From positions 62,001 to 126,000 of the forward strand of contig JAKLJL010000003.1 in the NCBI GenBank assembly GCA_023151185.1: a DNA stretch of 64,000 bases, read 5' to 3'. Source of the stretch: Bacteroidota bacterium (GTDB taxonomy: Bacteria > Bacteroidota > JABWAT01). Each line of letters begins with the position of its first letter. Within the stretch, counting starts at the first letter, position 1. The notes beneath the pieces were generated by a model that worked only from the letters and a program-made list of their open reading frames with translations, made no database searches and had not been told where the DNA came from. Below, in pieces: positions 61,121-61,743 of this stretch. A program made the translations under genes and the position numbers.

Positions 61121-61193
61121 GCGGGCGTAACTCAGCTGGTAGAGTGTCAGCTTCCCAAGCTGAATGTCGCGAGTTCGATCCTCGTCGCCCGCT
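61121..61193 (+). tRNA. tRNA-Gly(CCC)
   Basis: 73 bases with acceptor stem GCGGGCG / CGCCCGC, D arm (CTCAGCTGGTAGAG), anticodon stem TCAGC / GCTGA with loop TTCCCAA (anticodon CCC), and T arm GCGAG-TTCGATC-CTCGT. No encoded CCA. Followed by a terminator and by tandem copies of its own 3' half. Confidence 0.95.
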
Positions 61194-61203
61194 CAAAAGA
61201 AAC

Positions 61204-61229
61204 AGCCAGTTCACCGACTGGCTTTTTTT
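61204..61229 (+). terminator. tRNA-Gly terminator
   Basis: AGCCAGT-TCACCG-ACTGGCT followed by TTTTTT, 11 bases after the tRNA. Five more copies of this terminator occur downstream in the repeats. Confidence 0.9.
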
Positions 61230-61232
61230 ATG

Positions 61233-61743
61233 CTGCAGGCTGACTGTCGTCCCGAAGCTCGGGAATCCTCGTCGCCCGCTCAAAAGAAACAGCCAGTTGA
61301 CCGACTGGCTTTTTTTATGCTGCAAGCTGACTGTCGTCCCGAAGATCGGGAATCCCCGTTGCCCGCTCAAAAGAAACAGCCAGTTGACCGACTGGCTTTT
61401 TTTATGCTGCAAGCTGACTGTCGTCCCGAAGATCGGGAATCCCCGTTGCCCGCTCAAAAGAAACAGCCAGTTCACCGACTGGCTTTTTTTATGCTTCCCA
61501 GGCTGACTGTCGTCCCGAAGATCGGGAATCCTCGTCGCCCGCTCAAAAGAAACAGCCAGTTGACCGACTGGCTTTTTTTATGCTTCCCAAGCTGACTGTC
61601 GTCCCGGCGTCCGGGAATCCTCGTCGCCCGCTCAAAAGAAACAGCCAGTTCACCGACTGGCTTTTTTTATGCTTCCCAAGCTGACTGTCGTCCCGGCGTG
61701 CGGGAATCCCCGTCGCCCGTTCAAAAGAAACAGCCAGTTCACC
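61233..61743 (+). repeat. tandem tRNA-Gly 3'-half/terminator repeats (six units)
   Basis: Units begin at 61233, 61320, 61407, 61494, 61583 and 61672, with 87 or 89 bp spacing; the last is cut short. Each has an anticodon-like stretch (CTTCCCAAGCTGA or CTGCAAGCTGA), a new hairpin replacing the T arm (TCCCGA-AGA-TCGGGA in units 2-4), the tRNA 3' end (CGTCGCCCGCTC) and the tRNA terminator. The 5' half of the tRNA is never repeated. The last unit loses the terminator's second arm. Confidence 0.9.

Follow-up and report, generated by a model that had tools for sequence, protein, structure and literature searches.

A tRNA-Gly gene followed by tandem hairpin units

The window, the 64,000-nucleotide stretch of a Bacteroidota contig analysed here, contains an intact tRNA-Gly gene with anticodon CCC that matches Rfam RF00005 with 66.1 bits and heads an array of short tandem units (Table 1). 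The array was returned by TRF as a single call at 61178–61743, with a period of 89, 6.4 copies and 95% matches, and unit borders were set by cutting it wherever the start sequence recurs. ARAGORN, Rfam, TRF and unit splitting together bear out the six 87–89-bp units that a first-pass annotation had placed after an intact tRNA-Gly. Its count of terminators, kept in five of six, also agrees with ours, the terminator past the sixth broken copy being cut off.

Table 1 Features of the tRNA-Gly(CCC) array in the window
Feature	Position	Strand	Source
tRNA-Gly, anticodon CCC, intact; host gene of the array	61121–61194	+	ARAGORN, Rfam RF00005
Unit 1, 87 bp: terminator, anticodon-arm remnant, hairpin, tRNA 3′ end	61195–61281	+	
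tRNA terminator, copy 1 of six near-identical	61204–61223	+	
Hairpin TCCCGAAGCTCGGGA, unit 1, at the place of the T-stem 5′ strand and loop	61250–61264	+	
Unit 2, 87 bp	61282–61368	+	
Hairpin TCCCGAAGATCGGGA, unit 2	61337–61351	+	
Unit 3, 87 bp	61369–61455	+	
Hairpin TCCCGAAGATCGGGA, unit 3	61424–61438	+	
Unit 4, 89 bp	61456–61544	+	
Hairpin TCCCGAAGATCGGGA, unit 4	61513–61527	+	
Unit 5, 89 bp; sixth hairpin pair compensated	61545–61633	+	
Hairpin TCCCGGCGTCCGGGA, unit 5; A-T to G-C on both sides	61602–61616	+	
Unit 6, 89 bp; 5-bp hairpin stem	61634–61722	+	
Hairpin TCCCGGCGTGCGGGA, unit 6; sixth pair lost	61691–61705	+	
Terminator copies 2–6	61291–61310, 61378–61397, 61465–61484, 61554–61573, 61643–61662	+	
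Seventh unit, start only; terminator without 3′ arm	61723–61743	+	TRF, unit splitting, terminator scan

The elements of a unit follow one another in the order terminator, anticodon-arm remnant, perfect hairpin, T-stem 3′ strand and acceptor 3′ strand. Compared with the tRNA, the units swap eight nucleotides, CGAGTTCG (the T-stem 5′ strand and loop), for TCCCGAnnnTCGGGA. The T arm had been described as replaced by a hairpin; a hairpin does lie there, but only the T-stem 5′ strand and the loop are exchanged, the T-stem 3′ strand and the acceptor 3′ strand staying in place behind the hairpin and the anticodon-arm remnant preceding it. A terminator scan of the array gave 19 terminator-like matches (some overlapping, on both strands), compared with 0.9 expected from shuffles.

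The stem is closed by TCCCGA/TCGGGA in units 1–4 and by TCCCGG/CCGGGA in unit 5. The closing-pair covariation reported by the first-pass annotation is therefore present, although within the window it comes down to a double change in unit 5 only and by itself is weak. A count by eye across the six units gave similar numbers of changes per base for the hairpin stems and the tRNA tail.

No promoter-like sites were found in the array. A search of positions 61195–61800 against Rfam gave no match even at E ≤ 1, the RtT model included, and over the locus the tRNA is the sole match. A DNA search of plasmids with the locus gave ordinary tRNA-Gly matches only.

Related loci with and without a nuclease gene

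Five further tRNA genes of the same genome (Gly-GCC, Ser-CGA, Ser-GGA, Asp and Asn) carry arrays or insertions, found by an array search of the genome and a survey of its tRNA genes. Three ORF-less units of 80 bp, showing the exchange seen in the window (GTCG-TCCCGAAAATCGGGA-AG), follow tRNA-Gly(GCC). Behind tRNA-Ser(CGA) (L052; G000:C21:320300-323200) lie two near-complete pseudo-tRNA copies, likewise ORF-less, into whose T loop 56 nt with two hairpins are inserted, exactly at GTTC/GA. A small GIY-YIG ORF stands behind tRNA-Asp, tRNA-Ser(GGA) and tRNA-Asn, and at the Asp and Ser(GGA) loci a hairpin-broken tRNA copy comes next, then the terminator again. The tRNA-Asp nuclease matches PF01541 with an E-value of 3e-16. 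In the Asp array the next unit begins as the contig ends, and contig C20 starts within a like array. Contig ends inside arrays were seen at the end of G000:C11, the start of G000:C20 and L086; as contig ends fall in arrays, short-read assemblies probably undercount them. Across the whole genome, hairpins of the form TCCCGN2-8CGGGA number 106, compared with 8 for the reversed pattern, and most lie away from tRNA genes.

No GIY-YIG ORF is present in the units of the window array, which is therefore an ORF-less derivative and not a complete element; for the same reason the nuclease link escaped the first-pass annotation. In the congener G001 (MAG UWPOB_BACT1), one tRNA-Asp array consists of two ORF-less units and one ORF-bearing unit, and the second ORF-less unit equals the ORF-bearing one over its first 60 bp, minus the ORF of about 240 bp. 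Gracilimonas amylolytica, Rhodohalobacter halophilus and others have an ORF-bearing element at tRNA-Gly(GCC) that ends in a broken copy, its hairpin at the T-arm position seen in the window, and in Gracilimonas and other Balneolota this element shows the GTCG-TCCCG..CGGGA-A substitution of the window. On account of the G001 Asp array and the Gracilimonas substitution, we assign the window array to the ORF-less members of a Gly/Asp group, a putative place in the element family that rests on unit homology.

A search of relatives, one of the checks that the first-pass annotation had proposed, thus found similar arrays after tRNA genes in related genomes. The window array has counterparts in the congeners G001 (about 1.5 units) and G002 (about 2 units) at the corresponding locus, and both Gly tRNA genes that carry arrays here carry them in congeners too. 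The terminator of the G001 and G002 Gly arrays is unlike that of the window and matches that of their own tRNA, which points to concerted evolution. Slippage or unequal exchange certainly sets the copy number and homogenises the units, terminator included, within a species. Slippage of a damaged tRNA tail, with no element involved, would account for units that are 95% alike and homogenised species by species. The annotation had named units explained by recent slippage alone among the conditions that would undo its reading; slippage does act on copy number and homogenisation but fails on the same T-arm hairpin after different isotypes in several phyla, and on the nuclease ORF in units. Plain slippage, which explains copy number only, is thus disfavoured, and we regard it as very improbable as a full account.

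The first-pass annotation had read conserved structure under changing sequence as a sign of selected RNAs. The structural half of this claim holds, in that compensatory changes preserve the hairpin and the arrays are maintained at the two Gly tRNA genes. Terminator-bounded unit RNAs with a cellular role are, however, an improbable identity for the units: neither an Rfam match nor a promoter-like site was found, every unit lies behind a terminator, the copy number ranges from about 1.5 to 6, and like units elsewhere bracket a nuclease gene. Because they do, the array is better taken for a piece of a selfish element than for a regulatory RNA.

A filled and an empty allele can be compared at tRNA-Asn, where the genome of the window (G000) carries about 330 bp of inserted sequence that includes the ORF and G002 has none, the flanking tRNA, terminator and downstream gene being shared. 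By itself this pair would fit gain or loss alike; no broken copy is left at the G000 locus. The terminator after the intact tRNA differs from that after the broken copy at several loci, as expected if an insertion brings its own tRNA half and terminator.

Linkage of the nuclease to tRNA genes

A survey of 60 related genomes gave 109 loci with small GIY-YIG ORFs, at 48 of which ARAGORN placed a tRNA within 200 bp. All 49 domain–tRNA pairs are on the same strand, the tRNA standing before the ORF in 38 and after it in 11, and the neighbouring tRNAs comprise 24 anticodons. By contrast, a tRNA lay within about 1 kb of none of 20 UvrC-type GIY-YIG controls. A wider genome search yielded 46 loci; 45 were tested, and 34 of them have a tRNA no more than 200 bp away, likewise on the same strand. 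The tRNA-linked loci from this search span at least 15 named phyla, and its lineages include Bacteroidota, Balneolota, Cloacimonadota, Fidelibacterota, Planctomycetota, Lentisphaerota, Elusimicrobiota and several Patescibacteria lineages.

The nuclease tree splits into a half linked to tRNAs, where 43 of 54 rows have one, and a tRNA-free half; some rows of the linked half that have no tRNA are contig ends, or arrays with the intact tRNA further off. Mapped on a tree of 82 of these proteins, the amino acid of the neighbouring tRNA changes 34 times, compared with 58 times when shuffled (0 of 200 shuffles as low). A Gly(GCC) clade is conspicuous, as are several Asp groups; these trees were built from about 78 columns, all from fewer than 90, and many of their forks are unresolved. 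Isotype therefore tracks nuclease lineage, and the element stays with its tRNA across phyla.

Five residues of the GIY-YIG domain (Y5, Y16, G18, R26 and E62) are invariant in ten diverse members of the family, for which the nearest solved chains are UPF0213 (1ywl, 1zg2) and then SLX1. Searches of NCBIfam and PHROGs gave sub-threshold or weak homing-endonuclease matches only. Phage and plasmid proteins searched with one tRNA-linked nuclease gave weak matches only, so the family looks chromosomal.

Mirror-image loci also occur (L087 in G052, at tRNA-Arg; L148, L152, L160, L163, L176, L192 and L194). In this form a broken tRNA 5′ half and the ORF lie upstream of the intact tRNA, and the hairpin is mostly in the D loop. 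A further locus, L084 (G052:C34:6000-11000), has eight GIY-YIG ORFs repeated in tandem every 364 bp; within that stretch no intact tRNA was found.

Hairpins in the broken tRNA copies

Nearly all broken copies bear a hairpin, and its possible places are few and fixed. In Asp and Gly the T-stem 5′ strand is replaced; in Ser, Ala, Gly-TCC and Leu usually two adjacent hairpins lie in the T loop at GTTC/GA; in Val, Pro and Gln the anticodon arm is replaced; and at mirror-image loci of Arg, Leu and Ala the hairpin is in the D loop. The search for T-loop inserts was anchored on GTTC/GA, and free alignments gave the same site; several anticodon-arm and T hairpins were placed by eye. Position and sequence vary by lineage, with pairing kept.

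Of 33 Gly/Asp tail copies, 28 held a perfectly paired hairpin with 5 bp or more in a search without fixed TCC..GGA ends, the exceptions being other tRNAs or copies with the hairpin at another place. Covariance analysis, also proposed by the first-pass annotation, was made on 22 distinct Gly/Asp hairpins from several phyla, in which 97.9% of cells pair. The covariation score is 0.129 compared with 0.041 for shuffled sets, exceeding all 500 shuffles and lying far above all slid versions. Pairs 6–7 covary, whereas the outer five TCCCG/CGGGA pairs are invariant, in a set that was gathered by a pattern demanding TCC..GGA at the ends. This sequence conservation of the Gly/Asp stem goes beyond what an inactivating scar need show. 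Hairpins are also intact in the ORF-less arrays of three congeners, that is, they outlive the ORF, which would not be expected of a plain relic.

Palindromes are found beside the other half of the nuclease tree as well. GIY-YIG genes of the tRNA-free clade (for example, L042, L056, L061, L083, L095 and L139) are flanked by REP-like palindromic repeats, of types such as GTCATTCCCGCGAAGGCGGGAATCC and TTTCGA..TCGAAA. Perfect stems of at least 8 bp occur in 33% of their flanks, compared with 8% at a distance of 600–800 bp. This clade with its palindromes is possibly a GIY-YIG counterpart of REP/RAYT.

These hairpins bear on how the nuclease might act. A structure-specific enzyme could bind or cut them, the units moving as REP sequences do with RAYT, and the window units would then be non-autonomous and MITE-like, not dead relics. 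This is a serious rival to homing and gains weight because the nearest solved relatives are the UPF0213 proteins and the structure-specific nuclease SLX1; the invariant outer pairs (in the pattern-collected set), the lineage-dependent position and sequence of the hairpin and the hairpin-flanked sister clade are also in keeping with it. On the other hand, hairpin units were met inside broken tRNA copies only, and we know of no GIY-YIG enzyme that joins DNA. We consider it unlikely overall.

A model for a proposed tRNA-gene-colonising element

We propose that the window array is quite probably an ORF-less, tandemly multiplied form, satellite or relic, of a GIY-YIG selfish element that colonises tRNA genes. 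The evidence is sequence-based: unit structure, nuclease linkage, isotype specificity, a mixed array of ORF-bearing and ORF-less units, a filled/empty pair and hairpin covariation. The complete element would consist of a tRNA 3′ end with its terminator, a GIY-YIG ORF of about 80–100 amino acids and a partial tRNA copy in which a hairpin destroys one or more arms. As the element supplies the half that it replaces, the host would retain one intact tRNA after insertion, and the displaced half would persist as the broken copy. The mirror-image form would carry the 5′ half and sit upstream.

By analogy with the phage enzyme SegB (below), the small nuclease may cut tRNA-gene DNA; empty alleles would then receive the element through recombinational repair (homing), which would also expand it in tandem. 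The hairpin may guard the broken copy against cutting or against tRNA folding, or may itself be recognised by the nuclease. In the window array the ORF would have been lost, with copy number now shifting through unequal exchange. Two observations fit homing poorly. An empty allele has exactly the same tRNA as the intact one beside the element (Asn, Ala), and it is the broken copy that is altered, so that protection of the element's locus from its own nuclease goes unexplained; moreover, the Gly/Asp hairpin retains its sequence and outlives the ORF.

Integration sites are commonly tRNA 3′ ends, and a restored tRNA with a displaced 3′ end follows the same logic as the attachment sites of integrase-borne islands or phages. 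We think it barely plausible that the units are leftovers of such sites, given that units of 80–400 bp contain no integrase, the displaced end bears a hairpin, and 5′-half as well as 3′-half versions occur.

A broader reading, which we put forward tentatively and hold to be possible rather than probable, is that of a mobile-element class in which UPF0213/SLX1-type GIY-YIG proteins of about 90 amino acids use hairpins as mobile or recognition sites. In at least 15 phyla such elements would occupy tRNA genes, one isotype at a time, and exchange half of the tRNA yet leave it functional; the window array would be a non-autonomous satellite, and the sister clade would do likewise with intergenic palindromic repeats.

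Stand-alone GIY-YIG genes are abundant in bacterial genomes, mostly without an assigned function. If our proposal is true, a large group of them are selfish elements in essential tRNA genes that leave the tRNA unbroken, and form a bacterial counterpart of the tRNA-cutting phage SegB. It would also account for unusual repeats behind tRNA genes and for assemblies that break there, and raises the testable question of why a hairpin is needed in each broken copy. No description of such a tRNA-linked GIY-YIG element was found in the open-licence PMC literature, and a term search of a 2006 GIY-YIG survey (PMC1564403) turned up no passage on tRNA-gene adjacency. The element is apparently undescribed so far.

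Comparison with known systems

Each of four known systems shares part of this arrangement. The E. coli tyrT repeats, which encode rtT RNA (Rfam RtT), stand in tandem behind a tRNA gene, each with a tRNA 3′ end, as do the window units; the rtT repeats, which are longer, are not known to contain a hairpin in place of an arm, whereas the window units are shorter, have such a hairpin and do not match Rfam RtT. REP sequences are small palindromes tied to RAYT, a Y1 HUH transposase, and the likeness lies in small palindromes tied to one nuclease-type gene; here, however, the linked gene is GIY-YIG and not Y1 HUH, and the palindromes lie within tRNA fragments. Integrative elements at tRNA 3′ ends likewise restore an intact tRNA and leave the displaced 3′ end over, but differ from the present units of 80–400 bp, which have no integrase, a hairpin in the displaced copy and 5′-half mirror forms.

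The fourth system, SegB of phages T4 and T6, is a free-standing GIY-YIG homing endonuclease in tRNA clusters; the T6 enzyme cuts within tRNA genes at the motif RAWTSGAAC, and its activity leads to tandem repeats and amplification of the locus via homologous recombination (PMC13096335). Unlike SegB, the elements described here reside in bacterial chromosomes with one tRNA per element, have hairpin-broken tRNA copies and ORF-less arrays, and encode putative nucleases of about 80–100 amino acids near UPF0213/SLX1. Both systems have a GIY-YIG gene among tRNA genes, tandem repeats and a T-loop motif: RAWTSGAAC is the complement of the T-loop sequence GTTCSAWTY, and the T-loop inserts of the broken copies sit at GTTC/GA.
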